Source of the DNA: Nesterenkonia pannonica
GTDB taxonomy: Bacteria > Actinomycetota > Actinomycetes > Actinomycetales > Micrococcaceae
Direction: 5' to 3'
Assembly (NCBI RefSeq): GCF_019575955.1
Contig: NZ_CP080575.1
Location: forward strand, 1,426,001-1,490,000
Length of the DNA stretch: 64,000 bases
The notes under the pieces were generated by a model. It worked only from the letters and a program-made list of their open reading frames with translations, did no database searches and was not told where the DNA came from. Positions 9,729 through 59,081 of the stretch are shown in pieces. Every line of letters begins with the position of its first letter. Position 1 is the first letter of the stretch. The position numbers were made by a program, and so were the translations under genes.

Positions 9729-11136
9729 TCGTCACCCTCCTGCTCCTCGGAGCGCTGGCAGCGGCCGCGCTGGCCTTCCTGCTGTCGACCGCAGAGGCAG
9801 CCTTCATTCGGCTGACGCGCAAGGAGGCGGAGGAGATCGCGGAGAGGCTGGGCTCCCGCGCCGTTCACCGAATCCTCGAGGAGCCTGTGCCGCATACGCT
9901 GGCACTCCAAATGTGGCGATGGGTCCTGACCACCATTGCCGTGGTGCTGATCACCGCTACGGCGGTGATCCTGTTCAGCGACCTGGTGGTGGGCGCGATC
10001 GTGGCTGCGCTGGCCCTGACGCTGAGCGGATTCGTGTCCGCTGCGATCTCTCCGCGCAAGGTGGGCCGGGCGCAGCACGAATTCATCTCCGCGGCCACAG
10101 CGCGTATGGTCCGAGGCCTTCGCATGAGCCTGGGGCCCATCCCGCAGTGGCTCTCCGCTGCGGGTGTGAAGCTCTTTCCCGGGACGGCCGGAGGCGACCA
10201 GGGCTTCTTCGACGACGACGAGCTCCTTGAGTACATCGCTCGGGCCAACGAGTCCGACGTCATTGAGGACGCCGAGGCTGAGCTGATCCAGTCGGTGTTC
10301 GAGATGTCCAGCACGCGGGTCAGAGCCGTGATGGTGCCCCGCACAGACATGGTGACGATCGATGCGGACGCCACACTGGAAGAGGCCATGACCCTGTTCC
10401 TCCGGTCGGGCTATTCCCGGGTCCCTGTCATTCGCGGTTCCGCAGACGACATCACCGGGATGATCTATCTGAAGGATGTCGCCTACTTGGAGCACATGCT
10501 CCGCATCGGTCGTGCGCCCGAGCACTTCTCCTCCCGGGGTCCTGAAACCATCACCGCCGAGGAGCTGCAGCGCGATGTCCGCTACGTTCCGGAGTCCAAG
10601 GCGGTCGGTGAGTTCCTCTCTGAGCTGCAGCGCGAAACCACCCACGTGGCGATCGTCATCGACGAGTACGGCGGCACCGCGGGCATGGTGACGATGGAGG
10701 ATCTCATCGAGGAGCTTGTGGGGAGATCGTCGACGAGTATGACCATGAGGACGCCGAGCTCGAGCCGTTGGAGGACGGCTTAGGCTGAGGCTCTCCTCGC
10801 GGATGAGCATCGACGACTTCGCCGACGCGTTTGCCATAGACCTTGAGGATGAGGAAGACGTCGACACCGTGGGCGGGCTCCTGGCCAAGCATCTGGGCAG
10901 GGTCCCCATCAGCAAACTCTGAGGTGGAGATACCGCGCAGGAACGGCACGACCGTGGTGCTCCACGCGGACCGGCTCACCGGGCGGCGCAACAGAGTCAG
11001 CCACGTGCTGGCCTGGGAGTCCGAGCGCCACCGCGGCGCCCGGGGCGCTGTGGGCACGGCCGATGAGCAGTCGGCGCTGACAGACGACCACCACCAGGAG
11101 AGTCCCTCCGCGACAGAGAGTGAGAGAGCCCGATGA
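9725..11136 (+). CDS. Hemolysin family/CorC-HlyC transporter-associated membrane protein
   Basis: CNNM/CorC-type protein with N-terminal membrane helices ([52 protein letters not shown]). A tandem CBS pair follows ([60 protein letters not shown]), then a CorC_HlyC domain. It may export Mg2+ or another cation (family inference). Breaks: G4 for G5 at 10720-10723; GCTTAGGC at 10778-10785 where GCCGGC restores [16 protein letters not shown]; one extra A near 10915. The corrected frame ends at 11136, overlapping era as ATGA. About 469 residues. Confidence 0.87.
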
Positions 11137-12107
11137 CAGATGGCGTGCTGCTCGACGAATTCCCCGAGCACGACGAGAACTACCGCGCCGGATTCGCCTC
11201 ATTCGTGGGTCGTCCCAACGTAAGCAAGTCCACCCTGACCAACGCGCTGGTGGGGAGAAGGTGGCCATCACCTCGTCGAAGCCTCAGACGACGCGGCACA
11301 CCGTCCGCGGAATCGTCACGCGCCAGGGCGCACAGCTGGTGCTCGTGGACACGCCTGGTCTCCACCGGCCGCGCACCCTGCTGGGGTCCCGGCTGAATGA
11401 TCTGGTCGTGGACACGCTCAGCGAGGTCGATGCGATCGGCTTCTGCCTGCCCGCGGATGAGAAGGTCGGCCCGGGGACAGGTTCATCGCCGCTCAGCTGG
11501 CGAAGGTCTCGCACAAGCCTGTGGTCGCTCTGGTGACCAAGATCGACACGGTTGCCCCCTCTCAGGTGCCGGAGAAGCTCATCGCAGCCGACCAGCTGGG
11601 ACGTGAGCACCTCGCGGGTGAGAAGAAGCAGGCGGACGGCTTCGCCGCCATCATTCCGGTCTCGGCAGTCGACGGGACCCAGGTGGACACGGTGGCTGAT
11701 GAGCTGACCAAGATGATGCCCATCTCACCGCCGCTCTACCCCACGGGCGAGCTGACGGATGAGCCGGAGGCTGTCATGATCGGCGAACTGGTGAGGGAAG
11801 CGGCCCTGGAGGATGTGCGCGACGAGCTTCCCCATTCCATCGCCGTCACCGTTGAGGAGATGACGCCGCGCGAGGGGCGGCCGGACGACAGGCCCCTGCT
11901 CGACGTATACGCCACCATTCATGTGGAGCGGGACTCGCAGAAGGCGATCATCATCGGCAAGGGTGTAAGTAGCTGAAGCAGATCGGCTCCCAGGCGCGTC
12001 AGGGGATCACCAAGCTCCTGGGCACCCCGGTGCACCTGGACCTTCGCGTGAAGGTGACCAAGGAGTGGCAGCGTGACGCGAAGAAGCTGAACAGGCTGGG
12101 ATTCTGA
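11133..12107 (+). CDS. era: GTPase Era
   Basis: Ribosome-assembly GTPase with a C-terminal KH domain that binds the 16S rRNA 3' end. GRPNxxKSTLTNALVG (G1), TTRHTVRGIV (G2), DTPGLHRPRTLLG (G3), TKID (G4), then KH. In G1 the expected Ala-Gly reads Val-Ser because of GTAAGC at 11220-11225. GGGG at 11252-11255 and 11473-11476 each lack one G. Around 11965-11973 the KH loop (expected GKGGSRLKQIG) is scrambled to GTAAGTAGC. Corrected end LNRLGF at 12107, about 325 residues. Convergent with aspS. Confidence 0.93.
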
Positions 12108-34271: not shown

Positions 34272-35580
34272 ATGCGCGTACTTCTCGGCGTCACAGCGGG
34301 CATCGCAGCCTACAAGAGCGCGACCCTTCTGCGACTGCTGAGGGAGTCCGGCTGTGAGGTCGACGTGGTTCCCACTCCCTCCTCGCTGGAATTCGTCGGC
34401 AAGGCCACCTGGGAGGCACTCTCCGGCCGCCCCGTCACCACAGGGGTGTTCGAGGGCGTGGATGAGGTCCGGCATGTGCGGCTGGGCCAGGAAGCCGACC
34501 TCATTGTGGTCGCCCCGGCCACTGCGGACGTGCTTGCCAAGATCAGGGGAGGCCGAGCAGACGATCTGCTCACATCGAGCATCCTGGCCTCCGAGGCGCC
34601 CAAGCTGCTCGTCCCCGCGATGCACACGGAGATGTGGCGCAACCCAGCTACGACCGAGAACGTCAGTGTCCTGCGCGAGCGCGGCTTCGACGTGATGGAA
34701 CCGGCGGAGGGGCGCCTGACCGGAAAAGACACCGGCAAGGGCTTACTGCCCGAGCCCGACGAGATCTTCGAACGCGCTCAGAAGCACCTTGCAGGGATCC
34801 GGGCCGCTCCGTCTGCGGCCGTGCGTGATGAAGAGGCCCAAGATCTCCGCTCCACACCTCTGCGCGGACGCGCCGTCGTCGTCACCGCAGGCGGCACACG
34901 GGAGCCGCTGGACCCAGTGCGCTTCCTGGGCAACAGGTCCTCCGGCAAGCAGGGCATCGAACTGGCACGGGCAGCTGCTGCTGCTTACGCCGACGTCCGG
35001 CTCATTCTGGGCACGGCGGAGACGACGGTGCCGCATGCAGACGAAGGCATTGTGGTGGAGCGAACAGAGACGGCGGACCAGATGCTGGCCGCGGTCCTCG
35101 CCTCTGCGCCTACCTCCGACGTGCTTCTCATGGCCGCAGCGGTCGCGGACTTCAGGCCCGCGGCATACGCCGAGGCGAAGATCAAGAAGACTGACGACGG
35201 AACGTCGCCGGTGATCGAGCTTCAGCGCAACCCCGACATTCTCGCCGAAGCCGTGCGCCGCCGGGAGAGCTCAGGCGCTCCTCAGGTCATCGTAGGCTTT
35301 GCCGCTGAGACAGGCTCAGCCGATGCAGACCCCGCAGATCTTGCTCGCGAGAAGCTTCAGCGCAAGGGATGCGATCTCCTCGTGCTCAACCAAGTGGGCG
35401 AGGGTCTCGTGTTCGGCCAGGACGAAACGAGCATCCAGGTATTCGCCTCCACGGCCGCGGAGCGGACCTCGACCTCTCGGTGAGGCCGGAACAGTCACAG
35501 GAACAAAGGCGCAGGCCGCAGAGTCGATCGTTCAGCTCGCGTCGCAGCTGCTCGCAGCGTCCGCAGCGGCGTCTGCGTAG
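34272..35580 (+). CDS. coaBC: Bifunctional phosphopantothenoylcysteine decarboxylase/phosphopantothenate-cysteine ligase
   Basis: Coenzyme A synthesis. N-terminal flavoprotein decarboxylase (RVLLGVTAGIAAYKSATLLR, MHTEMWRNPAT) and C-terminal CTP-dependent ligase (VVVTAGGTREPLDPVRFLGN, SSGKQGIELARA, AAAVADFRP, KIKKT). Two motif anomalies: GCTTAC at 34741-34746 (Leu for the Arg of KGRLPEP) and at 34983-34988 (Tyr for the Gly of AAGADVRL). Missing bases near 35465 and 35485; the corrected C-terminus TGTKAQAAESIVQLASQLL ends at 35580. About 436 residues. Confidence 0.93.
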
Positions 35581-35608
35581 TCGGCGCTCCAGAGGGACTG
35601 CACAGCGA

Positions 35609-35664
35609 AGCAGGCCCCGTGCGGTCCACGCGTCCTGGGACGGTGGGGGAGCACGGGGCCTGCT
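35609..35664. terminator. Strong bidirectional hairpin terminator
   Basis: AGCAGGCCCCGTGC (35609-35622) and GCACGGGGCCTGCT (35651-35664) form a perfect 14-bp stem with a 28-nt loop, between the convergent coaBC and lipoprotein genes. No T tract. Confidence 0.75.
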
Positions 35665-35678
35665 CAGCAGCTGCGCTG

Positions 35679-36670
35679 CTACTCGACGATGACCGAGTCG
35701 AGATCGATCTCCTCATCGATGAAGTCGTACTCCACCATGAGGTCGACCATGTCGCTGAGCTGGTCCTGCCGCGGGTCGCCGTCGAACTCTTCCATGTTGA
35801 CGTTGGCGGCCGCCTCCTCAGGCAGGTCGAGGAACTCTGCCAGTGACGAAGCCACGCCTTCGGGGTCTCCCTCAGCCTGCTCGAGGACGTCCGTGAGAGC
35901 GTCCTGGAACTGCTCAACCTCTTCGGGCTCTGCGTCTGCCCGCTCCCGGAGGTGAAGCTGATCATGGTGGGCAGGCCGGGAATGACCTCCTGGTTGGGAT
36001 AGCCCAGGAGCTCGAACTCGTCCTCAGCCAGAGCCTGCGAGAGGAAGGGCTCCGGCAGCCAGGCGGCGTCGATGTTGCCGCGCTCGAGCTGCGCGGCCAT
36101 GTCCGGGAAGTCCACCTCGGTGAGTCCCAGCGCATCCGGGTCTCCGCCGTCCTCAGCGACGGATTCCATGATGGTGAGGTCTCCTGACCGTTGAGCACGT
36201 TGACCGCCACGGAGAGGTCCTCGAGGCCTACCCACGACTCGACGTCGTCATCGGATCGCACCACGACGCCGTTGATGTCGTCGCCCTCAGCATAGGAGTG
36301 CGAGTATCCGGTGAGGATTCGCATGTCCAGGCCCTGGTCGACGGCGACGAGCACTGAGAGCGCGTTGCCGATGGCATAGTCCATGTCCCCGGTCTGCACG
36401 GCTGGGAGCATCGCGGCCGCGCCCTGGCCCGGCGTGAGTGTCACGTCGAACCCGTGCTCCTCGAAGATGTCGTTGTCGAGGCCGTACTGGACCGCGGCGG
36501 AGGGTGCGATGGAGAGAACCCCAGGAAATCTCCGTGAGCTCGCCGTCGGCGGCGTCGTCGCCGTTGGCTGCGCCGCCATTGTCGCCGCCGTCGCCGTTGC
36601 CTCCGCAAGCGGTGAGCGTCAAGGCCACCAGGGAGCAGAGAGCGCCGGTTGTCTTGAGTCTGTGTTTCAT
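35679..36670 (-). CDS. ABC transporter substrate-binding lipoprotein (NMT1/SsuA-TauA-like)
   Basis: About 331 residues. Signal peptide MKHRLKTTGALCSLVALTLT with a lipobox Cys (LTACGG), a Gly/Asp-rich linker, then a periplasmic-binding fold: GLDNDIFEEHGFDVTLTPGQ, GAAAMLPAVQTGDMDYAIGN, GVVVRSDDDVESWVGLEDL, AAQLERGNIDAAWLPEPF. This pattern is typical of nitrate/sulfonate/taurine/pyrimidine-precursor binders. Frame breaks near 36525, 36180 and 35955; the end is acidic (DFIDEEIDLDSVIVE). No permease or ATPase gene lies nearby, so it is an orphan here. Its promoter shares an operator with the divergent catabolic operon. Confidence 0.82.
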
Positions 36671-36761
36671 GGGGATCCCTCGTTGAGTCGCTGGAGATGC
36701 CCGTTCCGAATTCCTCGGGACAGGGGAGAGGTCACTACTACTTGTGACTCATGCCACATTC

Positions 36762-36790
36762 AGTATCAGGCTACCTGTTGATCAAGTCAA
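36762..36790 (-). promoter_or_regulatory. Promoter with embedded palindromic operator for the lipoprotein gene
   Basis: Minus strand: -35 TTGACT (36785-36790), 17-nt spacer, -10 GATACT (36762-36767). The spacer edge holds CAGG-CTA-CCTG (36767-36777 on the plus strand). The same 9-mer AGGCTACCT occurs at 38299-38307 in the maoC promoter, in the opposite orientation relative to transcription. Confidence 0.72.
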
Positions 36791-36829
36791 GCCGATGCAC
36801 CCGATCGTCTGTTTACGCGGGCGACCCTG

Positions 36830-37716
36830 TCAGCTGCCGTCAGAGAAGCCGAAGAGACGGGCTGCGTTCTCGAGGTAGATGAGGCGCTTCACGTCGTCGT
36901 CGTACCCGAGCTGGTCGAAGTCCCTCATCCAGCGCTCAGCCGTCAGCAGCGGAAAGTCAGTGCCGAAGAGCATCTTGTGCTTGAGCAGCGTCCTGGCGTG
37001 CTGAACGAGGTTCGGTGGGAAGTACTTGGGCGACCAGCCCGAGAGGTCGATGTGCACATGAGGCTTGTGCAGGGCCACGGACAGAGCCTCGTCCTGCCAC
37101 GGGAACGACGGGTGGGCGAGGATGATCTTCAGATCCGGGAAGTCGACGGCGATGTCGTCGACGTGCATGGGGTTGGAGAACTTCAGCCGGATGCCGCCGC
37201 CGCCCGGCTACGTACGCTTGCGCCGGTGTGGCCGCTGTGGAACAGGGCGACGGTGCCGGTCTCCTCGATCGCCTCGAGGATCGGGTAGAAGCTGCGGTCG
37301 TTGGGGTAGAAGGCCTGGTAGCTCGGGTGGAACTTGAAGCCGCGGGTTCTGGCCTCGGCCAGTCGGCGCACTTCGCGTGCGGAGCGCATTCCGCCGTGGG
37401 GATCCACGCTGGAGAACGGAATGATGGTCTCCGGGTACTGGGCGGCCAGCTCGATGATCTCATCGTTGGTGACCGGATTGGGCTCGCCGGTGGCCCAGCT
37501 GGTGTCCACGGAGAAGACCACGCACATCATGTTCTGCTCGCGGTAGGTGGCAGCGAGGTCGTGGACGGTGGGGTTCTTGAAGTCTCGCCCGAAGTACTTC
37601 TGCATCGCCTCGTTGTGCTCTGCGTGCTCGGCGGAGTCGTCGGGGACATCGGCCGAGGCGAGGACGTGGGTGTGGACGTCGATGGCCACGATGTTCTCTG
37701 GCAGGGAGGTGTTCAT
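36830..37716 (-). CDS. Amidohydrolase family 2 protein (ACMSD/resorcylate decarboxylase-like)
   Basis: Metal-dependent TIM-barrel enzyme, about 295 residues. IDVHTHVLAS (HxH), GFKFHPSYQAFYP, LFHSGHTGA, IILAHPSFPWQDEAL, HIDLSGWSPKYFP and FGTDFPLL (Asp ligand). Relatives decarboxylate or hydrolyse cyclic/aromatic acids; substrate unknown. The two halves are separated around 37190-37213, where the plus strand reads GGCTACGTACGCTTGCGCC. This looks like two or more adjacent GCCGGC motifs garbled together. It lies 16 nt downstream of the marR gene and is probably cotranscribed. Confidence 0.85.
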
Positions 37717-37732
37717 AGTGCTCCTTAGGGGC

Positions 37733-38194
37733 TCAGGGTGCTTGGTTGTTGAGCTGCCGCAGGTTCCGGCGCATGGTGCGAAGGGTCAGAGCCAGCTGGT
37801 CGGCGGCCTCCCGGCTCAGTCCTTCGAGGAGCTGGGCCTCGGTGCGTGAGACGGGCTCCTCGACCGCTGCGAGGACCCGGAGGCCCTCGGGCGCAGTGTG
37901 GAGCAGCAGGCGCCGCGCGTGGGTGGGGTCCTGGTCGCGGGTGATCCAGCGACGCTCCTGCATCACGGAGACGGTCTCGGCCATCGACTGCGCTCTCACG
38001 AATGAGCGACGAGCCAGTTCCGATGAGGTGATCCCGGGGCGTGTGCGCAGCACGGACAGCGCCGTGTACTGGGCGGCGCTGAGGCCGTGCGCGGAGAGGG
38101 CCTGCTCCAGCGAGGGGCGGAACCCGGTCTCGATGAGCTTCAGCATGTACAGAAACCATCCCGCCCCGGGATCCTCTGAAGTGATCTGGTCCAT
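37733..38194 (-). CDS. MarR family transcriptional regulator
   Basis: 153 residues, intact. Winged helix at about residues 35-105: LSAAQYTALSVLRTRPGITS, ELARRSFVRAQSMAETVSVM, ERRWITRDQDPTHARRLLLH. Relatives respond to aromatic acids or CoA thioesters. It faces the maoC operon, and the intergenic region holds the AGGCTACCT operator. It is the likely local regulator of the cluster (inference). Confidence 0.92.
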   Translation of the reverse strand: MDQITSEDPGAGWFLYMLKLIETGFRPSLEQALSAHGLSAAQYTALSVLRTRPGITSSELARRSFVRAQSMAETVSVMQERRWITRDQDPTHARRLLLHTAPEGLRVLAAVEEPVSRTEAQLLEGLSREAADQLALTLRTMRRNLRQLNNQAP

Positions 38195-38283
38195 ACGTCC
38201 TCGCGACAGTCTCGGTGTTCAGGAGTCCGCTCAGCATAGCCGTCACCTCCTCGTGATCAGATCTCATCCAGCGAGACAAGGAT

Positions 38284-38313
38284 TTGACCTCATGATTAAG
38301 GCTACCTGATACT
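38284..38313 (+). promoter_or_regulatory. Promoter with operator for the maoC operon
   Basis: TTGACC (38284-38289), 18-nt spacer, GATACT (38308-38313). The operator AGGCTACCT (38299-38307) abuts the -10 box. It shares TTGAC, AGGCTACCT/AGGTAGCCT, CCTGATACT and AATGTG with the lipoprotein promoter at 36762-36790. Confidence 0.78.
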
Positions 38314-38359
38314 CAATGTGACCCAGGTCAAGTTTTTTCGTCGAGCTATGGAGGTACAC

Positions 38360-38830
38360 ATGTCATCCGCTCCCCAGAACCCCATTTCCGTGAGCATCGA
38401 GGATCTGCCCAGCATCGAGGGCCAGAGCTTCGGCCCGTCCAGCTGGGAGACCCTCACCCAGGAGGACATCAGTCGGTACGCAGACATCTCAGGCGACCAC
38501 AACCCCATTCACGTGGACGCCGAGGCTGCGGCCCGCAGCCCGTTCGGCACCATCGTGGCACACGGCTACCTCACCCTCAGCCGCGTCGTCCCGCTGATGG
38601 CAGAGGTCTTTGAGGTCAAAGACATCAGCTCCGGCATCAACTACGGGCTCGACAAGCTGCGGTTCCCCGCACCCGTGCCCGCTGAGGGCCGCATCCGCGT
38701 TCACGGCACGGTGACCCAGGTCAAGGAGATCTCAGGCGGCTACCAGGTGCACGCCGACCTGACCTGGGACGTCGAAGGAAACGACAAGCCAGCCTGCTTC
38801 GCACAGCAGGTCCTGCGCTACTACCGATGA
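38360..38830 (+). CDS. MaoC family dehydratase
   Basis: 156 residues, hot-dog fold. The hydratase motif YADISGDHNPIHVDAEAA carries the catalytic Asp/His, followed by GTIVAHGYLTLSRVVPLMAE and GINYGLDKLRFPAPV. It would hydrate an enoyl-CoA. Start ATG 38360 has GGAGG 5-9 nt upstream; an in-frame ATG 38348 overlaps that site. First gene of a four-gene operon. Confidence 0.92.
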   Translation: MSSAPQNPISVSIEDLPSIEGQSFGPSSWETLTQEDISRYADISGDHNPIHVDAEAAARSPFGTIVAHGYLTLSRVVPLMAEVFEVKDISSGINYGLDKLRFPAPVPAEGRIRVHGTVTQVKEISGGYQVHADLTWDVEGNDKPACFAQQVLRYYR

Positions 38831-38841
38831 GAGGAACGTCC

Positions 38842-39830
38842 ATGAACGAGCACAAGACACTCGCAGAGCTGCGGGAGAAGGTCGGATCAGCTGAGCTGAA
38901 CGGCAAAGTTGCCATCGTGACCGGCGCGGGTCGAGGCCTCGGCCGCTGCTATGCCCTGGCACTGGCTGCTGCCGGCGCCTCGGTCGTCGTCAACGACGCC
39001 GACGAGAAGGCCGCCGAAGGGGCCGCTGCGGACATCACTGAAGGAGGCGGCAAGGCGATCGCCGCTCCGGGCCGCGTCGGGCCGGAGGCCGAGGCCCAGC
39101 GCCTCGTCGAGACCGCCGTCGCCGAGTACGGGCGCCTGGACATCATGGTGACCAACGCCGGAATCCTGCGGGACCGCGTGTCGTGGAAGATGTCGGAGGA
39201 GGACTTCGACGCCGTCATCGGCACGCACCTGAAGGGCACGTGGACCTGCGGCAAGGCGGCCCTGCAGCAGATGCGCTCTCAGGGCGAGGGCGGGCGTCTG
39301 ATCCTCATCGGCTCCCCGGCTTACCAGTTCGGGTCCTTCGGCCAGTCCAACTATGCCCCTGCCAAGGCGGGCATCGTGGCGCTGGCCCGCACATGGTCCA
39401 TGGAGCTCTCGAGGGACAAGATCACGGTGAACGTAGTGGTCCCCACCGCCATGACAGCCATGACCGCCACCATTCCTGTCTACAAGGAGTGGGCCGAGGC
39501 CTACGAGAACGGTCTGCCGCTGCCGAAGGTTGCGCGCACCGACCACGCTCTGGGCAGCCCGGAGGACGTCACCCTCTGATCGTGTGGCTGGCCAGCGAGC
39601 AGGCACAGGAGGTCACAGGGCAGGCCATCGGCCTCGGCGGCGACCGGCTCACCCTCTACTCCCACCCCGCGGAGCTGGAGACCGTCGACGCATCCGAAGG
39701 CTGGGACGTCGAAGCCCTCGGCAGAACCTGGCAGGAGCAGCTGGCCTCCAAGGCCCAGCCGTCCGGCATGGGTCCCAAGCCCGATCCCACTGAGCACCCG
39801 GCCGGTGCCCCATCAGGAGACAGGGGATGA
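38842..39830 (+). CDS. SDR family oxidoreductase (3-hydroxyacyl-CoA dehydrogenase-like)
   Basis: NAD(P)-dependent Rossmann enzyme, about 329 residues. TGAGRGLGRCYALALAAAGA (cofactor loop), NAGILRD, ILIGSPxxQFGSFGQSNYAPAKAG (Ser-Tyr-Lys; YxxxK seen), plus a 60-residue C-terminal extension. GCTTAC (39319-39324) gives Ala-Tyr for the expected Ala-Gly. A missing base near 39573 joins EDVT to PLIVWLASEQAQEVTGQAIG. Follows maoC by 11 nt. Confidence 0.9.
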
Positions 39831-39834
39831 CGCT

Positions 39835-41456
39835 GTGCGCGAGAATCACGCCAACATCTGGCAGCAGATAGCGCGCACCCGCCCGGAGAAGATCGCCCTG
39901 GTCTCAGGCGATCGTCGGTACACCTACGAGGAGTTCGAGCAGCTCGCAGAAAAGGCTGCGGGCACGCTGTCTTCCCACGGGGTGCGATCCGGCGATGCGG
40001 TCGGCTTCTATCTGCACAACACCGCCGAGTTCCTTATCGCCTTCTACGCATGCCTGAAGCTGGGTGCCACCCCGGCGCCGATGAATTACCGGTATCGCGG
40101 CGCCGAAGTGGCGGAGCTGGTGCAGACGTCCCAGCCCAAGGCCATGCTGTACCGGGCGGCCTCGCGGGAGGAGGCTGCCGAGGCGCAGCGTCTCCTCGAT
40201 GAGAGCGCCCCGGCCCTGTGGGTGGAGATCGACGATGACTCAGCCCCTCAGGGCCGCGGCCCTGAGGGGGCCATCAGCTTCGACGAGCTGCTGCAGGGTC
40301 CGAGGCACGAGGATTCGGGGCCCATCAGCCCTGACGGTGAGCTGTACATCTTCACCGGCGGCACCACGGGCAGGCCCAAGGCGGTGGTGTGGGAGATAGG
40401 CGGCCTGATGGACATTCAGGGCAGCTCAACCTATCCGCCCATCGGCCTAGACATACCCGAGACGCTCGAGCAGGCCGTCGGCATCGCGACCAGCGAGTCC
40501 ACGCCTCAGGTGAACACACTTCCGCTGGCCCCCTTCATCCACGCCACGGCTCTGTTCATGTCCACGAACACCCTGAACGTCGGGGGCACTGTGGTGGTGA
40601 ACCCCAACGCGAGCCTCGACGCACGAGCTGCCGCGGACCTGGCGATCAGAGAGCATGTCACGCAGCTGATCGTCGCTTACGATGCGGTCGCTCTTCCCGC
40701 CGTGGAGGCTTTCGAGGAGCACCCGGATCGGGACGAGCTGGCCGTCCAGTCGGTGCTGAGCTCAGGAATGCGCTTCAGCGACGAGACCAAGGCCCGGCTC
40801 CACCGTGTGGCGCCCTGAGCATCTTCGACATCCTCGCCTCCAGCGAGGGCGGGCCCTACGCCATGGCGATCACCCGCTCAGAGGCGGATCTGCCACGCGG
40901 TTCCGTCTCACAGAGGGGGTGTGGTCCTGGACGAAGGCAACAACCAGGTGCAGGACACGCCCGGATCCACCGGCATTCTGGCCTTCCGGGAGCCCTCCCG
41001 AAGGGCTACCTCAATGAGCCGGAGCGCAGCCTGGAGACATACCCGGTGATCGACGGGGTCCGCCACGTGCGCCCGGGCGACTACGTGGAGGCTTACGAGG
41101 ACAGGCACATCGAGTTCCTCGGCCGCGGCTCTGCGGTGATCAATACCGGAGGCGAGAAGGTGTACCCCGCCGAGGTGGAGCAGGCGCTCCTGGAGCACCC
41201 GGCCGTCCACGACGCGGTGGTCTTCGGCCTGCCGGATAGGCGCATGGGCGAGCAGGTCTGTGCTGTGGTGGGCGTCGAGGACGTCAGCTCCATCACCGCC
41301 GACGACCTGCGTGCATGGGTGCGGGAGCGCCTGGTAAGCTACAAGAAGCCTCGGATCGTGGCTGTCCGGCAGAGTCTGGATCGCACTCCGGCCGGGAAAG
41401 TCAACATGAAGGCTGTGAAAGAGACGGCGCGAGAAGCCGCGTCGCAGGAGACATGA
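39835..41456 (+). CDS. Acyl-CoA synthetase (AMP-forming)
   Basis: ANL-superfamily ligase that activates a carboxylic acid as its CoA thioester, about 540 residues. YIFTGGTTGRPKAVVW (P-loop), LSIFDILASSEGG, PGDYVEAYEDRHIEFLGRGS, VINTGGEKVYPAEVEQAL, RTPAGKVNMK (catalytic Lys). GTG 39835 has AGGGGA upstream and lies 4 nt after the SDR stop. Breaks near 40812, 40900-40925 and 41005. GTAAGC at 41334-41339 gives RLVSYKKP where RLAGYKKP is expected. Substrate unknown. Confidence 0.9.
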
Positions 41457-42665
41457 TGCCCGACCAGTCCGAGCTGAATCCCGTGGGTCCTGGGGACTTC
41501 TACGGATTCGCGGACCGCCTGACGGTCGCCGAAAAGGCTGCGCTGCGCAGGCTCCGCACCTTCCTGCGCGAACGTGCGGAACCCATTCTCGCCGAGCACT
41601 GGGAGTCGGCGACGCCCCGGAGTTTCTCCGGCACGAGTTCGCAGCCGGTGATTTCGTGAACTCGTGGGAGCTGCGAGAAGCGGGGAGGAGGTGCGTCCGC
41701 TCTTCGTGGGCTTCCGCAATCTGGAGCTCTCGCGGACGGACAGCTCTCTGGCGATACTCATCGGCGGTCAGATCGGCATGTTCAACGGTGTGATGCGCAT
41801 GGGGCTCACACCCGAGCAGTACTCGTCGGTGCAGGCAGACATCGAGAGCTTCCGCATGACGGGATGCTTCGCTCTGACGGAGCCGGAGCACGGCTCGGAC
41901 ATCGCCGGAGGGCTCAGCACCTCGGCTCAGCCTGCGGGCGATGGGTGGGTGCTGAACGGCCAGAAGCGGTGGATCGGCAACGCTGCCTATTCGCAGTACG
42001 CCTTGGTGCCCGCCAAGGATTCCTCGACAGGGGAGCTGCGGGTGTTTCTGGTCCGCACCGACGCGCCCGGAGTGCGGATTGAGAAGATCCAGGGCAAGAC
42101 CGCCGTGCGCATGGTCCACAACGCCCACATCTTTCTCGACGATGTGGAGGTGTCTGAGGCGGACCGGCTGCCGCGCATCTCCTCCTTCGAGGAGCTCGGC
42201 TCGGCCTTCCGCACCCTCCGGCCTGACGTGGTCTGGAATGCCGTCGGCCTGCAGGCCGGTGCCTACGAGCACACTCTGGCGTATGTGAAGCGGCGCCAGC
42301 AGTTCGGACGGCCCATCGGCAGCTTCCAGCTGGTGCAGGAGAAGCTCGTGCGCATGCTCGGCAACGTCACCGCCTCATTGGGAATGGCAGTCCAGCTCGC
42401 CGAGCTCGCTGAGCAGCAGGGCGGCGCCGACGGCGCGGTGAGCCACGCGCAGGCAGCTCTGGGCAAGTCGTGGGTCTGCGCGCGCATGCGCGAGACCGCC
42501 GCCTGGGGCCGCGAGCTGCTCGGCGGGGACGGCGTGCTCCTGGAGAACGACCTCGCGCGCTTCCATGCAGATGCTGAAGCTCTCTACACCTTCGAGGGCA
42601 CCCATGAGATCAACAGCCTCATCGTGGGGCGGGAGATCACAGGCCACAGCGCCTTCCGCGGCTGA
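41453..42665 (+). CDS. Acyl-CoA dehydrogenase (glutaryl-CoA dehydrogenase-like)
   Basis: FAD enzyme, about 404 residues. FALTEPEHGSDIAGGL, GWVLNGQKRWIGNAAYSQYA, KRRQQFGRPIGSFQLVQEKL, LLGGDGVLLENDLARFHADA and LYTFEGTHEINSLIVGREIT, whose Glu is the usual catalytic base. Start overlaps the ligase stop (ATGATG). Breaks near 41610 and G4 for G5 at 41682-41685. The PEHGSD and EGTHEIN blocks favour the GCDH-like branch; substrate unknown. Last gene of the maoC operon. Confidence 0.9.
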
Positions 42666-42707
42666 AACCTCAGGATGTGTCCGCGCCAGGGCATAGCATC
42701 GGGGGTG

Positions 42708-52736: not shown

Positions 52737-53036
52737 AGTGTCTTTCCTCGGAGTATGAAATAAGGCGATCAGTGAGCATCCCTGTAATACAGAGTGTCGC
52801 GAAGCGGAGGGAAGCATAGAGAGTGCCCTCGCTCGGGGTTCCGGAGCTGCTGTGCATTCGATTGCACCGGATGAAAGCGACGCTCTCACTGTTCGCCAGA
52901 ATGTGTCAAGAGTCACACTAGCCTGTGATCCACTTCACCATGATTCCTTGACGACAGCGTATGAGTACGATTTCATGGAGGTGAATACGTTTGCACGATG
53001 TCCCAACACAGTGGTTGGTCAGAAGTGAGGTCGAAG
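52737..53036. promoter_or_regulatory. Divergent intergenic region, MHS transporter and carboxylase operon
   Basis: 300 nt of lower-GC sequence holding both promoters. Visible: the 11-nt palindrome CTGTAATACAG (52782-52792), GTGT...ACAC flanking CAAGAGTC near 52901-52916, and TTGACG (52948-52953). The only -10-like box nearby, TACGAT at 52966, is just 12 nt from TTGACG, so I do not assign a promoter. An in-frame ATG at 52998 has GGAGG 16 nt upstream. Confidence 0.45.
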
Positions 53037-54569
53037 ATGACGCAAGACACTCCTAGCATTGCCTCCGTGATGAGCGGCGGTGGGCGACCACCGAACAGCG
53101 AACGAGAAATAAAGATCATCGACACCACTTTGAGAGATGGTCACCAGAGTTTATGGGCTACTCGAATGAGGACCGAGCACATCGTCGACTTGGCAGCAGA
53201 ATTCGATGCTGCAGGCTACGAACATGTGGACCTCATGGCTCCGATTCAGTTCGATGTCGCCGTTCGCTATCTCCAGGAGGATCCCTGGGAGCGCGTGCGA
53301 AAAGCCCATGAGCTGGCCCCGAACACGAAGTTTCGAGCGCTGATCCGGTCCAAGAACATTGCGGCATTCGACTTCCTGCCCGATGATGTCATCACCGCCT
53401 GGGTCGAACGTCTCTACGCCAACGGATTCCGGGTCATCGGCTCGTTCGACGGCCTCAATGATGTGGACAACATTGCGCCGGGACTGCGACGCGCCAAGGA
53501 GCTCGGCGCAGAGACCTTCGGTGCCGTGTCCTTCAGCGAAAGCCCCGTTCACACCGATGAGCTGTTCGTCTCCAAGGCGCAGGAGCTCATTGAGAAGGCC
53601 GACGTCGACCGAATTATGCTCAAGGACGCTGGAGGGCTCCTGACGCCCGAACGCATTCGGTCCCTTGTCCCCGCCCTGAAGGCAGTCATGGGCGAGCGTC
53701 CGCTGGAAGTCCACACGCACTCGCTCACTGGGCTCGCTCCTCTGGTGTGCCTGGAGGCCGCAGAGGCAGGTGCAGATTCCCTGCACCTGTCCGTGGCGCC
53801 CTTGGCTGCGGGCAACGGCCAGCCTTCTGTGCAGAACGTCACGCGGGATCTTCGCGCCCTGGGCTACAGAGTCAACGTGGATGACGCAGCCGTCAGCCGC
53901 ATCAGCGACACACTGCGGTCGATTGCTGAGGCTGAGGGCAAGCCCGTCGGGGAGCCCGTTGAGTACAACGGCATGCACTTCATGCACCAAACACCGGGCG
54001 GAATGCTGTCCAACTTCCGTTCGCAGCTGGCGACCGCTAAGCCTGGAGGACAGGTACGAGGAGCTGCTGATCGAAATTGCCCGGGTGCGGGCCGAGCTGG
54101 CCTATCCGATCATGATCACCCCTTCGCCCAGTTCGTAGGAACCCAGGCGGCTATGAATGTGGCCAGCGGTGAGCGGTACAAGATGGTCCCCAACGAGATC
54201 AAGAAGTACGCGCTGGGCTACTACGGCAAGCTGCTCACCGATATCGATCCCGAGATCCACCGGAAGATCGTGGAGAACGGCGCCTCGGACATTCCCCTCG
54301 AGCCTTCGGAGCCTCAGCCGATGCTCGATGCGATCGCTGGCCGCTTCCCGGAAGAGTCCACAGATCTGCATCTGCTGCGTGCGATGTTTGCGGGAAGCCA
54401 GGTCGACGACATGAAGGCCGCTGTGGCCGAGGGTCGCAGCGGCGAACAGGCTCCAATGCCGCTTCTGGACCTGGTGGAGACCCTGAACGAAAGCGCCAAA
54501 CCCGGAGTGAATCGCCTCGCTGCCGGGGACTTGAAAATAACGATCCTCAAAGGAGAGAACCACGCATGA
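53037..54569 (+). CDS. Carboxyltransferase subunit (pyruvate/oxaloacetate carboxyltransferase type)
   Basis: About 510 residues: HMGL-like TIM barrel plus PYC_OADA conserved domain. IKIIDTTLRDGHQSLWATRM (metal Asp), IMLKDAGGLLTPERI (catalytic Lys), HTHSLTGLAPLVCLEAAEAG (HxH), YNGMHFMHQTPGGMLSNFRS. No biotin domain at the C-terminus; that is encoded by the next gene. GCTAAGC (54036-54042) shifts the frame; GCCGGC gives LATAGLEDRYEELLIEIARV. An in-frame one-base loss near 54125 follows. Start ATG 53037 has GAGG upstream. The acceptor may be pyruvate or another 2-oxo acid. Confidence 0.88.
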   Translation: MTQDTPSIASVMSGGGRPPNSEREIKIIDTTLRDGHQSLWATRMRTEHIVDLAAEFDAAGYEHVDLMAPIQFDVAVRYLQEDPWERVRKAHELAPNTKFRALIRSKNIAAFDFLPDDVITAWVERLYANGFRVIGSFDGLNDVDNIAPGLRRAKELGAETFGAVSFSESPVHTDELFVSKAQELIEKADVDRIMLKDAGGLLTPERIRSLVPALKAVMGERPLEVHTHSLTGLAPLVCLEAAEAGADSLHLSVAPLAAGNGQPSVQNVTRDLRALGYRVNVDDAAVSRISDTLRSIAEAEGKPVGEPVEYNGMHFMHQTPGGMLSNFRSQLATAKPGGQVRGAADRNCPGAGRAGLSDHDHPFAQFVGTQAAMNVASGERYKMVPNEIKKYALGYYGKLLTDIDPEIHRKIVENGASDIPLEPSEPQPMLDAIAGRFPEESTDLHLLRAMFAGSQVDDMKAAVAEGRSGEQAPMPLLDLVETLNESAKPGVNRLAAGDLKITILKGENHA

Positions 54570-55096
54570 CTCTGGAAAAGCCTGACATCAAAGAGCTGAA
54601 GGCGCTCGTGGAGTGGATGAACACCGCCTCTGACGTGCGCGAACTGTCCGTCAAGTACGGCGACGTCGAGCTCTTCGTCTCACGCAACGAGAACAGCGGC
54701 CATGGGTCTGCGCCCGATGCCCAGGCCGCGGCCCCATCAGCACCGGCGGCGAGCTCGACGGCCAACCAGGCCCCTCCCGCTGCCGCACCCACGGAGGATG
54801 CTGGGTAGGCCTCCGCCCCACCGGCACCGGCGTCGACCGAGCGAGGTGCGGACGAGGTGACGGTCACAGCACCCATGGTCGGCACGTTCTATGAGGCTCC
54901 GAGCCCAGGAGCTGAGCCGTTCGTGAAGGTCGGCGATCGAGTGTCCGCTGATTCGGTGCTGTGCATCCTTGAAGTCATGAAGCTTATGAACAACGTGGAA
55001 GCCGGGGTCGAGGGAGTCGTTTCGGAGATCCTCGTGGAGAACAACCAGGCGGTCGAGTTCGGTCAGCCCCTGGTGGTGATCACGCGTGACTCATAA
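54566..55096 (+). CDS. Biotin carboxyl carrier protein (AccB-like), with apparent in-frame stop
   Basis: 176 residues. N-terminal helical part [20 protein letters not shown], a Pro/Ala linker, then a biotinyl domain [20 protein letters not shown] with the target Lys in [13 protein letters not shown] (54806-54808) sits in the linker inside GTAGGC (54805-54810); GCCGGC reads Gly-Pro-Ala and joins the two halves in the same frame. ATG overlaps the carboxyltransferase stop (ATGA), and the end overlaps the biotin carboxylase gene by 11 nt. Confidence 0.92.
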
Positions 55097-56442
55097 GCAG
55101 CTCAGCAGCGTACTGATCGCAAATCGCGGGGAGATCGCGCTGCGCATCGTTCGGGCCTGTCAGGAGCTCGGCGTGACCAGCGTCGTTGCATACTCCGAAG
55201 CCGATCTGGACACGCTTGCCGTGAAGCTCGCGGACAAGGCCGTCTGCATCGGGCCCGCCAGCTCGGCGAAGAGCTATCAGGACCCCGTGCCATCATCAGT
55301 GCGGCGCTGGCCTACAAAGTCGATGCCATCCACCCCGGATACGGCTTTCTGTCCGAGAAGCCGGATTTCGTCGAAATGTGCGAGGCCGAGGGTGTGGGCT
55401 TCGTGGGACCTGCCGCAAGCATCATCCGCAGCATGGGCGACAAGATCGAAGCCAAGAAGATTGCCCGCAGGGCAGGCGTCCCTGTTGTCCCGGGCTCCGA
55501 CGGGGCCATCGATGACTATGATCAGGCCGTAGCGGTCGCCCGGGACGTCGGATATCCGCTCCTGATCAAGGCGTCCGCCGGAGGCGGCGGACGAGGCATG
55601 CGCGTGGTCGAGTCTGCTGAGACGCTCGAGAGCGATCTCGCTCAGATCATGTCGGAGGCGGAGACTGCCTTCGGGGATCGTTCCGTCTATCTCGAGCGGT
55701 ACCTCACTGATATCCGTCACATCGAGATTCAGGTGATGTCGGACGGTGATTCGACGGTTCATTTCGGCGAGCGTGACTGCACCGCGCAGCGGCGCAATCA
55801 GAAGCTTGTGGAGGAGGCCCCTTCCCCGGTCCTTGATCCGCAGCTGAGGGAGCAGCTGGCAGCGGCCTCGGTGGCCCTATGCCGGGAGGTCGCCTACAGG
55901 AACGCGGGAACAGTTGAGTTCGTCTTCGACAACATAGAGCGCCAATTTTATTTCATCGAAATGAATACGCGGATCCAGGTCGAACACCCCGTTTCGGAGA
56001 TGGTCTCCGGCATCGATCTCATCAAGCTTCAGCTGGAGATCGCAGCAGGAAACCCGCTGCCGTTCGCCCAGGAGGACATCAGCATCCGAGGCCATGCCAT
56101 CGAATGCCGCATCAATGCTGAGGATCCTGCTGAAGGCTTCAGGCCCAGCCCTGGACGGATTGAGGCCTTCCGGGCGCCCGGCGGCTTCGGGGTTCGTCTG
56201 GATTCGCATGTGGAGAGCGGGTACACGATTCCTCCCTTCTACGATTCGATGATCGGGAAGCTGATCGTGTGGGAAACAACCGCGACGAAGCGATATCTCG
56301 GGCGCTTCGGGCCCTGAATGAGATGCACGTCGACGGCATTACGACCACCGCAGCTCTGCACGCTGCGATCCTCGACAGTGAGGTCTTCCGCAGCGGCGAA
56401 TTCAATACGGCATTTGTGGCTGACTTCCTCAGCAGCGAGTAG
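55086..56442 (+). CDS. Biotin carboxylase (AccC-like subunit)
   Basis: ATP-grasp enzyme carboxylating biotin on BCCP, about 452 residues. [51 protein letters not shown] (ATP loop), [40 protein letters not shown]. Breaks near 55290 and 56282. GTG start. Completes a three-gene split carboxylase with the two preceding genes. Confidence 0.92.
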
Positions 56443-56515
56443 AGACAGCCTACTGGGACGAAAGCTCTGAGGCAACGACAAGCAGTTCGACGACGATGAA
56501 GGAGGAGCGCTCCAG

Positions 56516-57715
56516 ATGACTGAGGCGTTTGTGTTCGACGGTGTGCGCACCCCTTCGGCAAGATGGGCGGGGCCCTGGCGGGGTGCGTCCGGATGACCTC
56601 GCGGAGCTGGTGATCAGCACTCTGGTCAGCCGCGCGCCCGGCATCAGCGCCGAAACGTCCGGAAAAGTCGTCGGCGAGGTGATCTTCGGCAACGCCAATG
56701 GTGCGGGTGAGGAGAACCGCAATGTCGCTCGTATGGCCTGGCTGTTGGCTGGCGGGGACACAGGTGTTCCGGCCAGCACCGTGAACCGCCTGTGCGGCTC
56801 CTCCCTCGACGCAGCGATTCAAGCGGTCCGCCAGGTGAAGCTCGACGAGAGTGATGCTGTGCTGGTCGGGGGCGTGGAGTCGATGTCTCGAGCGCCGTGG
56901 GTGCTGCCGAAGACGGAGCGTCCCTTCCCATGAAGAACCTTGAGCTGACCAACACCTCCTTGGGCTGGCGCCTCATCAACTCTCGAATGCCTGCGGAGTG
57001 GACAGTCTCGTTGGGTGAGGCCACTGAGCAGCTTCGGGAGAAGTACGGGATCGTCCGAGAGGACATGGACGAGTTCGCAGCGGCGTCTCACCGGCTGGCA
57101 GCTCAGGCGTGGGAGGACGGGCACTATGACGAGCTCACCGTTCAGGTCCCTGGTGCTGACCTGACCCAGGACGAGACGATCCGCTCGGAGACCACGCCGG
57201 AGGCGCTGGCCGGGCTGAGGACCGTCTTCCGCAAGGAGGACGGCACGGTGACGGCCGGAAACGCCTCTCCCATGAATGACGGTGCGTCGGCTGCGTGGAT
57301 CGGGTCCCGGGGCGGGGAGAGGCTGGGCCTGAAGCCTCAGGCTCGCATCGTAAGCTGGGGCGCGGCTGCCAATGAGCCCCAATTCTTCGGCTATGCGCCT
57401 GTCGAGGCCTCGAACAGGGCTCTCGCTCATGCGGGCATCACCTGGGCGGACGTCGAAGCGGTAGACCTCAACGAGGCGTTCGCCGCGCAGTCGCTGGCCT
57501 GCATCAGGGCCTGGGACATCGACCCCACCATCGTCAACGCGTGGGGCGGCGCCATCGCTGTGGGCCACCCGCTGGGCGCTTCCGGCGTGCGCTGCCTGTC
57601 TACCCTGGCTGCCCGGATGCAGCACACCGGAGCGCGTTGGGGGTGGCCACTCTCTGCATCGGTGTGGGGCAGGGATTGGCCATAGTCCTCGAGAACACCA
57701 ACTGACAATTCGGGA
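56516..57715 (+). CDS. Thiolase family protein (acetyl-CoA acetyltransferase/3-oxoadipyl-CoA thiolase-like)
   Basis: About 400 residues. Nucleophile Cys in TVNRLCGSSLDAAIQAVRQV, ALNEAFA-type VDLNEAFAAQSLACIR, NAWGGAIAVGHPLGASG (His), and CIGVGQG (second Cys). The Val where GGG is usual may be another call error. Breaks: C4 at 56550-56553, G4 at 56580-56583, one near 56930, GGGGG at 57639-57643 (six expected). GTAAGC (57350-57355) gives RIVSWGAA. SD GGAGGAG at 56501-56507. Cleaves a 3-oxoacyl-CoA. Confidence 0.9.
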
Positions 57716-57719
57716 GTGC

Positions 57720-58449
57720 GTGACACCTATGACAATGAGAATTGCTGCCTCACCGACTGAGGCTGTGGCTGGAGTCGGTGATGGGGCGACGGTGCTTCTG
57801 GGTGGGTTCGGCAATGCTGGGCAGGCTCATGAGCTGATTGATGCGCTGCTGGACTCTGGCGCCAAGGACTTGACGGTGGTGAGCAACAATGCCGGTCAGG
57901 GTGATGCGGGGTTGGCGCTGCTGGTCAAGGAGTCCCGGGTGGGGAAGATCATCTGTTCGTTTCCGCGGCAGTCGGATTCGTGGCATTTCGATGAGGCCTA
58001 CCGGGCTGGTCGGATTGAGCTGGAGCTTGTGCCCCAGGGCAATCTGGCTGAGCGGCTGCGCGCAGCGGGTGCGGGCATCGGGGCCTTCTTCACCCCCACC
58101 GGCTACGGAACCACGCTGGCCGAAGGCAAGGAGACGCGCCGGATCGACGGTGTGAACTACGTGCTGGAGCACCCGCTCCGGGGACCTGGCGCTGATCAAA
58201 GCTTTTGCGGCCGATGAGCGCGGAAACCTCACCTACCGCAAGACCGCCAGAAATTTCGGTCCTGTCATGGCCGCAGCTGCTGAGCATACGGCGGTGCAGG
58301 TGGAGAAGGTGCTTCCCGCCGGGTCGCTGAATCCTGAGAACGTCATTACTCCCGGTATCTATGTGGACACTGTGGTGGAGGTGCCCACCGCGTCCGGTGA
58401 GGCTGCGAGCAGGGAAGGAAGACTCAAGGATGATCACCGCACGATATGA
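57720..58449 (+). CDS. 3-oxoacid CoA-transferase subunit A
   Basis: About 243 residues. VGDGATVLLGGFGNAGQAHE (the CoA-transferase Gly loop), SNNAGQGDAGLALLVKESRV, FFTPTGYGTTLAEGKETRRI, KTARNFGPVMAAAA and ENVITPGIYVDTVVEV. Matches PcaI/ScoA/AtoD-type subunits moving CoA between succinyl-CoA and a 3-oxo acid. Two bases are missing at the GGGG 58180-58183 (LRGDLALIKAFA expected). Overlaps subunit B by 20 nt. Codons are visibly richer in G/T third positions than in neighbours. Confidence 0.9.
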
Positions 58450-59081
58450 CGAGAAGCTCTCACGGCAGCAGTTGGCTGAGTTGGTGGCGGCTGATATTCC
58501 GGCGGGTTCGTATGTGAATCTGGGGATCGGTCAGCCGACGACGGTGTCGGATTATCTGACTCCGGAGCAGGGGGTGACTCTGCATACCGAGAATGGGATG
58601 TTGGGGATGGGCCCGGCGGCTCAGGGGATGAGGTCGATGGTGATCTGATCAATGCGGGCAAGATCCCGGTCACGGAGCTGCCGGGGACCAGCTATTTCCA
58701 TCATGCTGATTCCTTCGCGATGATGCGCGGGGGCACCTGGACGTCTGTGTGCTGGGTGCTTTTCAGGTCTCTGCTGGTGGGGATCTGGCCAATTGGTCCA
58801 CTGGTGCCCCGGATGCGATTCCGGCGGTGGGCGGTGCGATGGATCTGGCGATCGGGGCTAAGGATGTGTTTGTGATGATGAGCCTCTTCGCCAAGGACGG
58901 TACGGCGAAGATTGTTCCGCAGCTGGGGTATCCGGCGACGGGGCTGGGGTGTGTGAGTCGGGTCTATACCGATCATGGTGTCTTCCACATCGAAGACGGT
59001 GGGGTCAGGCTGCGTCAGGCCTACGGTCTCAGCGCCGAGGAGATCCAGGATCGTCTGGACTTCGAGCTGCTCACCGACTGA
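58430..59081 (+). CDS. 3-oxoacid CoA-transferase subunit B
   Basis: About 217 residues. [20 protein letters not shown], catalytic Glu in [67 protein letters not shown]. Breaks at 58625-58632 (G4 for G5 before [13 protein letters not shown]) and at GGGGG 58727-58734 (six expected). Pairs with subunit A. Third codon positions are unusually T/G-rich for this genome. Confidence 0.91.

Follow-up and report, generated by a model that had tools for sequence, protein, structure and literature searches.

Which pathway is encoded by a compact group of seven genes in Nesterenkonia pannonica that carries the enzymes of a beta-oxidation and no thiolase? The group occupies positions 35679-42665 of a 64,000-nucleotide stretch (the window; G000:C1:1426001-1490000). 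The genome is a single contig of 2.70 Mb, its completeness estimated at 62.5%. A first-pass annotation had described a MarR-controlled catabolic cluster with beta-oxidation-like logic and a separate uptake lipoprotein, had suggested a cyclic or aromatic carboxylic acid as substrate class, and had concluded that the combination matched no pathway it could name. Domain and sequence searches recovered all the gene types named there. The cluster type and an aromatic acid as substrate class hold up; the lack of a pathway name has been superseded, the gene set being that of the Phd/Cou phenylpropanoid pathway. We consider it likely, judging from sequence, that the cluster directs a coenzyme A (CoA)-dependent, thiolase-free, beta-oxidative deacetylation of phenylpropanoids of the Phd/Cou kind, with hydroxycinnamates and their saturated forms as the probable substrates. 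Genomes are labelled G0xx, G1xx or G2xx and fetched loci L0xx or L1xx; G000 is the N. pannonica genome, and G019, G010, G018 and G021 are congeners.

The gene set itself is the first argument. On the minus strand lie the genes of an NMT1/THI5 lipoprotein, an Amidohydro_2 protein and a MarR regulator, and on the plus strand those of a MaoC_dehydratas protein, an adh_short short-chain dehydrogenase/reductase (SDR), an AMP-binding ligase and an acyl-CoA dehydrogenase. Both here and in G019, a CoA ligase, a hydratase, a 3-hydroxyacyl-CoA dehydrogenase and a CouO-type amidohydrolase thus stand together with no thiolase among them, which is the gene set of Cou and Phd. Rhodococcus jostii RHA1 has the Cou pathway, in which the amidohydrolase-superfamily member CouO is reported to carry out the last deacetylation step, under a MarR repressor and with products passing to protocatechuate (PMC4737184). 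For Corynebacterium glutamicum, cg0341, cg0344, cg0345 and cg0347 are reported as essential for phenylpropanoid degradation (PMC11123965). There, phdBCDE correspond to cg0344-47 and the Phd pathway ends in benzoates (PMC5948850), PhdA is given as its CoA ligase (PMC10576375), PhdR as a MarR repressor released by CoA-activated phenylpropanoids (PMC7593625), and the route as a beta-oxidative deacetylation (PMC12125101). The first-pass annotation had correctly noted that no thiolase lies within the cluster and that one is found at 56.5 kb. The absence is expected, since the last deacetylation step would fall to the amidohydrolase, as it does to CouO in Cou, and cleavage at this point would not call for the 56.5 kb thiolase.

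Comparison shows the seven-gene grouping to be beyond chance: in locus L119 of G019 all seven recur without change of order or orientation, their tblastn pieces being 50-86% identical, and they too lie between coaBC and priA, both named by reading. The window order is coaBC, lipoprotein, amidohydrolase, MarR and, divergently, MaoC, SDR, ligase, dehydrogenase, then priA. In G019 the first part reads coaBC, metK, a CynX-type major facilitator superfamily gene, LigM, an ATP-binding cassette (ABC) ATPase and two permeases, lipoprotein, amidohydrolase and MarR, and the second part MaoC, SDR, ligase, dehydrogenase, an MTHFR-like gene, PurU, a second lipoprotein, two IclR regulators and priA. About 2 kb of additional DNA separates lipoprotein and amidohydrolase there, including a partial second binding-protein match. 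The G019 LigM is well above its model cut-off (890.8 bits against 580, NF047885), and the locus also encodes an MTHFR-like protein, PurU and an IclR regulator above the PcaR/PcaU cut-off. In G000, LigM, ABC permeases and ATPase, a second lipoprotein, an MTHFR-like gene and the start of PurU are found at 1.235-1.242 Mb. The metK gene that follows coaBC in G019 is absent between coaBC and priA in the window (35483-42690) and occurs only in pieces at 892 kb of G000. With part of a G019-type locus at 1.235-1.242 Mb and metK at 892 kb, the two loci differ by rearrangement. The lipoprotein orthologue in G019 (L119:4252-5214) is TIGR01728-like, below cut-off; the intact amidohydrolase and ligase orthologues of G019 are at L119:7194-8087 and L119:10223-11893. 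Permeases and an ATPase homologous to those of G019 were found in L132, at ~1.235-1.237 Mb of G000 and outside the window, and the permease and ATPase partners of the lipoprotein are likely encoded there in trans.

The amidohydrolase retains the metal-ligand motifs HxH, FKFHP, AHPSFPW and GTDFP, divided between the two pieces of the gene in this assembly, and HxH, FKFHP, AHPSxPW and G[ST]DxP are present in the intact homologues aligned. The aspartate of G[ST]DxP is residue 257 in L042, and we take it to be the counterpart of CouO Asp257. No NCBIfam model matched at the thresholds used, and a PDB search returned the uncharacterised BB4693 alone. At E <= 1e-40 the window gene is the only match in G000, and relatives occur in 89 of 197 genomes of the family sample. 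Twenty-three amidohydrolase loci, chosen and not random, were examined in detail: homologues of ligase, SDR and MaoC lie within the fetched stretch in 12, that of G019 among them.

The remaining enzymes keep their characteristic motifs: GDHNPIH in MaoC, YxxxK in the SDR, TGGTTGRPK and PAGK in the ligase, and FEGTHEIN in the dehydrogenase. These, like the amidohydrolase motifs, we take to be catalytic. The best PDB match of the MaoC enzyme is Rv0130 (2c2i; E 3.9e-39). The dehydrogenase had been called 'GCDH-like', which is right at the family level; in an alignment with 2eba, the arginine that binds the distal carboxylate in glutaryl-CoA dehydrogenase (presumably Arg94 of the human enzyme) is an alanine in the window protein. 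A glutaryl-CoA dehydrogenase function is rejected on this replacement, and the label describes the ancestry of the dehydrogenase, not its function.

The regulator points to the same class of substrates. The nearest solved relative of the window MarR is HcaR (E 1e-19, with 46 of 133 aligned residues identical), the next PDB match following at 1.6e-7. HcaR is reported to control hydroxycinnamate catabolism (caffeate, p-coumarate, ferulate) in Acinetobacter baylyi ADP1, with hydroxycinnamoyl-CoA as inducer, although the HcaR structures bind unesterified ligands (PMC5487221). An operator consensus, AGTATCAGGYWRCCTK, can be drawn on an ATCAGG-n3-CCTGAT-like repeat, with exactly two exact copies in G000, one at the lipoprotein promoter and one at the divergent MarR/MaoC promoter (Table 1). 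G019 likewise has exactly two copies, both at orthologous promoters, and G010 has a single copy, which lies upstream of MaoC. All remaining matches have two mismatches, the totals against a reversed-pattern control being 8 vs 5 (G000), 5 vs 8 (G019) and 12 vs 4 (G010); as the consensus was built from these same sites, the counts are no independent test, and it is the conservation across species that constitutes evidence. A shared predicted operator thus links the lipoprotein promoter with the catabolic one.

From gene families, gene order, motifs, synteny, operator conservation and lower-pathway homologues a route can be proposed, in which the substrate, every reaction, the operator function and the repressor ligand are our assignments. 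A hydroxycinnamate (ferulate, p-coumarate) or saturated phenylpropionate would enter via the lipoprotein and the ABC permease encoded elsewhere, and the ligase would form the CoA thioester. For saturated substrates only, the acyl-CoA dehydrogenase would desaturate arylpropionyl-CoA to cinnamoyl-CoA. The MaoC enzyme would hydrate cinnamoyl-CoA, and the SDR would oxidise the 3-hydroxyacyl-CoA to the aryl-beta-ketoacyl-CoA. The amidohydrolase, replacing thiolase and thioesterase, would split this into a benzoate (vanillate or 4-hydroxybenzoate) and acetyl-CoA, and a LigM-type O-demethylase and PobA, encoded elsewhere, would supply protocatechuate for ring cleavage. MarR would repress both promoters through the shared operator, with release presumably by an aryl-acyl-CoA. 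Within this explanation, methoxylated, ferulate-like substrates are perhaps favoured because of the association with LigM, which we put at about an even chance.

Homologues of the lower pathway are present in the same genome. At 1.222-1.242 Mb of G000, 220-240 kb from the cluster, lie homologues of the G019 PobA, PcaK-like transporter, PcaH, PcaB-like protein, PcaC, LigM and ABC transporter, mostly in pieces owing to frameshifts. Among the G019 queries, PcaH, PobA (484.8 bits, cut-off 351) and PcaC (164.7, cut-off 155.7) exceed the curated cut-offs; the PcaB-like (296, cut-off 355.75) and PcaK-like (224.2, cut-off 770) proteins fall below them. LigM homologues are found in G000 at 1.237 and 2.323 Mb, the latter within a second LigM-PurU-MTHFR set with lipoprotein pieces (L133, G000:C1:2314000-2333000), and contig 31 of G010 carries two LigM-like copies and a weaker third. 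These genomes (G000, G010) each contain several folate-dependent O-demethylase-like genes. LigM-type enzymes in Actinobacteria have already been published for one metagenome-assembled genome (PMC9296663).

The neighbourhoods of relatives likewise contain genes for aromatic acids. The dehydrogenase query gave 142 confirmed loci; among the best 80 of these, which were kept, six carry the amidohydrolase, and all six also have ligase, MaoC and SDR, with VanA in the stretch in four and PobA plus PcaH in one. In a tree of the 23 amidohydrolases two groups, of 9 and 14, separate with support 98/96 (midpoint root). Subtype A (9) comprises G019, C46 of G010, L117, L118 and L162-L166. On the subtype B side, within the group of 14, eight loci (L037-L039, L042, L170-L173) share the order SDR-amidohydrolase-dehydrogenase-MaoC. 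We take cg0344-47 to be an SDR, a TIM-barrel metal hydrolase, a 'glutaryl-CoA dehydrogenase' and a MaoC-like protein, which agrees with these VanA-linked loci in both content and order. Six of the eight have a VanA homologue (Cryobacterium L037-L039, Arthrobacter L042 and congeners G021 and G018; not L172 and L173), all eight include a ligase homologue, and L042 adds PobA and PcaH homologues. VanA is named from Pfam VanA_C, with no NCBIfam VanA match, and VanB and PadR are labels by reading only. The HcaR-like regulator together with VanA, PobA, PcaH and LigM near relatives' clusters supports an aromatic substrate class.

The ligase type found in the window (subtype A) is present in eight fetched loci (L119, L120, L162, L163, L165, L040, L041, L118), in four of which LigM lies in the stretch (L119, and L162, L163 and L165, which are close relatives of one another). 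In G165, G100 and G181, LigM is the neighbour of a ligase and a dehydrogenase of the window types. In L040 and L041, the A-type ligase and MaoC are combined with a B-type amidohydrolase. Instead of the ligase/SDR/MaoC set, the annotation of L117 shows a feruloyl-CoA synthase, an enoyl-CoA hydratase, dehydrogenases and a MarR; its amidohydrolase is 52% identical to the G019 enzyme, and its label '4-hydroxyphenyl-beta-ketoacyl-CoA hydrolase' is the depositor's annotation.

Two further arrangements were seen around subtype-A hydrolases. In G010 (L161:11634-13873) the gene immediately before the amidohydrolase matches 3-oxoacid CoA-transferase A with one half and B with the other, and in another genus (G165, G100, G181, G125; L162, including 9155-11495, L163, L165, L166) a PcaI-like match lies ~0.7 kb from it. 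Such CoA-transferase neighbours suggest a ligase-free entry of aryl-beta-keto acids into the subtype-A hydrolase. L118, on the Rhodococcus opacus plasmid NZ_CP082159.1, typed as mobilizable, has an amidohydrolase-ligase-SDR-MaoC set adjoining a P450, a ferredoxin, alcohol and aldehyde dehydrogenases and an annotated protocatechuate 3,4-dioxygenase, an arrangement suggestive of a plasmid-borne phenylpropenoid or cinnamyl-alcohol route.

Several points weigh against the phenylpropanoid assignment or its simplest form. It is a match in kind only, drawn from gene content, neighbouring genes and family relationships. The first-pass annotation had held that assignment of the same cluster to a known pathway would overturn it, and in this same sense that has come about; its interpretation as a whole stands in part, for cluster type and substrate class and not for the unnamed pathway. 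The ligase has no match to 4-coumarate:CoA-ligase models among those listed, the nearest model being PRK07798, below cut-off, and the PDB entry for CouR matches the window MarR weakly (5e-4). In G000, LigM lies outside the cluster, and the best LigM match there is interrupted by two in-frame stops in the present assembly. Eleven of the 23 amidohydrolase loci (L117, L161-L169, L174) lack the full ligase/SDR/MaoC set in the fetched stretch. Of these, L162, L163 and L165 (G165, G100, G181) have ligase, dehydrogenase and LigM with no MaoC match and with the amidohydrolase several kb off; L164, L166-L169 and L174 gave neither a ligase nor a MaoC match at the threshold used. The window amidohydrolase belongs to a subtype separate from the VanA-linked one, and congener G010 carries both (A on C46, B on C31), so the two may differ in substrate. 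At the subtype-A locus of G010 (L161) the amidohydrolase lies ~11-15 kb from the other genes, the dehydrogenase is matched in pieces only, and no LigM or pca-type ring-cleavage match was found in the fetched stretch. The subtype-A hydrolase may accept aryl-beta-keto acids from other routes, and its substrate may differ from plain coumarate or ferulate.

These last points lead to the explanation that competes best, and which overlaps with the one we favour: the chemistry would be the same, with subtype A acting on a phenylpropanoid or aryl-beta-keto acid beyond simple hydroxycinnamates (for example side-chain-oxidised or lignin-dimer-derived compounds) and subtype B on coumarate and ferulate. 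The coexistence of both subtypes in G010, the CoA-transferase-type gene before its subtype-A amidohydrolase, the PcaI-like match in G165, G100, G181 and G125, and the P450, ferredoxin and alcohol and aldehyde dehydrogenases beside the L118 enzyme all suit it. However, the HcaR-like regulator and the G019 LigM suit ordinary guaiacyl substrates, and G000 has no second amidohydrolase match at E <= 1e-40, so that this genome shows no subtype-B copy (the search did not extend to other hydroxycinnamate routes). We regard this explanation as possible and somewhat doubtful.

The ligase and dehydrogenase matches bear on a different proposal, that the cluster degrades an alicyclic, terpenoid or steroid side-chain acid, with the amidohydrolase serving a retro-Claisen or decarboxylation step. 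The nearest ligase model, PRK07798 (NF005863, cut-off 543; 424.3 bits for the G019 orthologue and 524.5 for L118), represents a family in which we include mycobacterial FadD19-type enzymes, the dehydrogenase matches the cyclohexane-1-carbonyl-CoA dehydrogenase model (114.7 bits, cut-off 650), and MaoC plus SDR pairs are also a feature of the beta-oxidation of steroid side chains. Yet the ligase scores only 148.1 on the steroid-24-oyl-CoA synthetase model (cut-off 750; no search was made for steroid ring genes), the genes adjoining relatives' clusters are for vanillate and protocatechuate, and the regulator is nearest HcaR. That the cluster degrades such acids is improbable. Still less probable is that the amidohydrolase is a decarboxylase of the ACMSD or gamma-resorcylate decarboxylase type, acting on an aromatic carboxylate while the other genes serve a different substrate. 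The Amidohydro_2 family includes both decarboxylases and hydrolases, and the absence of an NCBIfam match and the 11 relatives lacking the ligase/SDR/MaoC set would fit; but the set is complete in the window and in 12 of the 23 loci, all six dehydrogenase-linked amidohydrolase loci have ligase, MaoC and SDR, and a thiolase-less beta-oxidation set needs a terminal C-C cleavage enzyme, the role of CouO in Cou.

The Hpe (hydroxyphenylethanone, acetovanillone) pathway, in which the biotin-dependent carboxylase at 53-56 kb would feed the amidohydrolase, is extremely unlikely and was rejected because PPDK_N, presumably the domain to expect in the Hpe kinase (HpeHI-type, phosphoenolpyruvate-synthase-like), occurs in 0 of 4 genomes searched (G000, only 62.5% complete, G019, G010 and G165) against 13 of 14 controls; in addition, G019, which keeps the cluster, matches the carboxyltransferase at 32% only, and to our knowledge Hpe needs no MaoC, SDR or dehydrogenase. 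In its favour, the OadA/PYC-like carboxyltransferase and the biotin carboxylase encoded at window positions 52998-56317 flank a short open reading frame (ORF) that has no Pfam match and takes the place of a carrier protein, and a biotin-dependent carboxylase is reported to act in Hpe together with HpeF, a hydrolase resembling CouO (PMC9618137).

These genes form part of a separate catabolic block (52998-59081) of carboxyltransferase, short ORF, biotin carboxylase, thiolase and CoA-transferase pieces beside a LacI regulator. Its carboxyltransferase has matches of only 28-32% in G019, G010, G165, G100, G181 and G125, and one of 37% in G212. The thiolase at 56.5 kb matches 3-oxoadipyl-CoA thiolase models best with its N-terminal piece and general acetyl-CoA acyltransferase with its C-terminal piece, both below cut-off as fragments. 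A part for it in the cluster pathway was rejected on the N-terminal match, which suggests the lower beta-ketoadipate pathway.

The features of the cluster are collected in Table 1, the coordinates of split genes coming from tblastn with intact orthologues and from direct reading of the sequence. Compared with their intact G019 orthologues, five of the seven genes are broken up over two or three frames, a count that leaves out one row, the paralogue match of the second binding protein (with it, 6 of 8). Cluster-specific decay was rejected: of 27 flanking ORFs (window 12.2-63.5 kb) with a match spanning more than half of the ORF, 20 are split too, a few of the 27 being possibly spurious shadow ORFs. 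The split ones include genes we read as aspS, hisS, carA, carB, priA and leuS. As housekeeping and flanking genes are split as often as the cluster, the damage is not specific to it; the frameshifts are probably assembly indels across the whole window, in a genome assembly that is probably indel-laden.

Table 1. Genes and predicted operators of the cluster (window coordinates).
Feature	Position	Strand	Remarks
NMT1/THI5 (SsuA-like) ABC-type substrate-binding lipoprotein	35679..36670	-	three frames in this assembly; tblastn pieces 50-81% identity to G019
Predicted MarR operator AGTATCAGGCTACCTG, upstream of lipoprotein gene	36762..36777	+	exact consensus match; kept at orthologous G019 promoter
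Amidohydro_2 metal-dependent hydrolase, proposed aryl-beta-ketoacyl-CoA hydrolase (CouO-like)	36830..37716	-	frameshift near 37.2 kb; 76/86% identity to G019
MarR-family repressor, HcaR-like	37733..38194	-	intact; PDB HcaR best match
Predicted MarR operator AGTATCAGGTAGCCTT, divergent MarR/MaoC promoter	38298..38313	-	consensus match
MaoC-type enoyl-CoA hydratase	38348..38830	+	intact; GDHNPIH motif; start codon candidates 38318, 38348, 38360
SDR, proposed 3-hydroxyacyl-CoA dehydrogenase	38842..39830	+	YAPAK motif; frameshift near 39.57 kb
AMP-forming acyl-CoA ligase	39835..41456	+	frameshifted in C-terminal half; nearest NCBIfam model PRK07798, below cut-off
Acyl-CoA dehydrogenase, GCDH/ACX4 branch	41453..42665	+	start overlaps ligase stop (ATGA); frameshift near 5' end

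If the phenylpropanoid assignment is correct, a cluster without a name becomes a testable pathway and its lack of a thiolase is explained. It would be largely of an ordinary aromatic-degradation kind with its genes arranged slightly differently, and what interest remains attaches to subtype A with its LigM link and to a possible sharing of tasks between it and the VanA-linked subtype B. We tentatively suggest, as a possibility that may well prove wrong, that the phenylpropanoid pathway ending in an amidohydrolase comes in a second subtype in this family, with its own ligase, hydratase and HcaR-like repressor plus operator, coupled to LigM O-demethylation, an MTHFR-like protein and PurU rather than to the Rieske enzyme VanAB, and taking methoxylated, saturated or side-chain-modified phenylpropanoids unused by the VanA-linked subtype. 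The literature we found does not distinguish such a subtype; it included no paper joining ketoacyl-CoA hydrolase, amidohydrolase and ferulate, and none joining ligM, ferulate, beta-oxidation and acyl-CoA dehydrogenase in Actinobacteria. Were the split real, one actinobacterial family would possess two parallel side-chain-shortening routes, with oxygen-dependent (VanA) and folate-dependent (LigM) demethylation, which would bear on lignin valorisation and on the prediction of substrates from genomes.

Among known systems, Phd of C. glutamicum (phdA, phdR, phdBCDE; cg0340-cg0347) shares with the window cluster a CoA ligase, a MarR repressor and, on the proposed reading, beta-oxidative deacetylation. 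The window cluster differs from it in having an NMT1/SsuA-type ABC lipoprotein and a PRK07798-like ligase, and in its order MaoC-SDR-ligase-dehydrogenase with the amidohydrolase on the opposite strand. Cou of R. jostii RHA1 likewise has an amidohydrolase-superfamily member and a MarR regulator, but the window regulator is nearer to HcaR than to the PDB CouR, an acyl-CoA dehydrogenase belongs to the window set, and LigM accompanies the G019 locus. With the hca regulon of A. baylyi ADP1 the likeness lies in the regulator, HcaR being the nearest solved relative of the window MarR; the hca route itself is a non-oxidative hydratase/lyase route that yields an aldehyde and is not known to use an amidohydrolase. 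Compared with the tetrahydrofolate-dependent LigM systems for O-demethylation of vanillate and 3-O-methylgallate, the G019 locus contains LigM while the window cluster does not, and the VanA-linked clusters have a Rieske enzyme instead.

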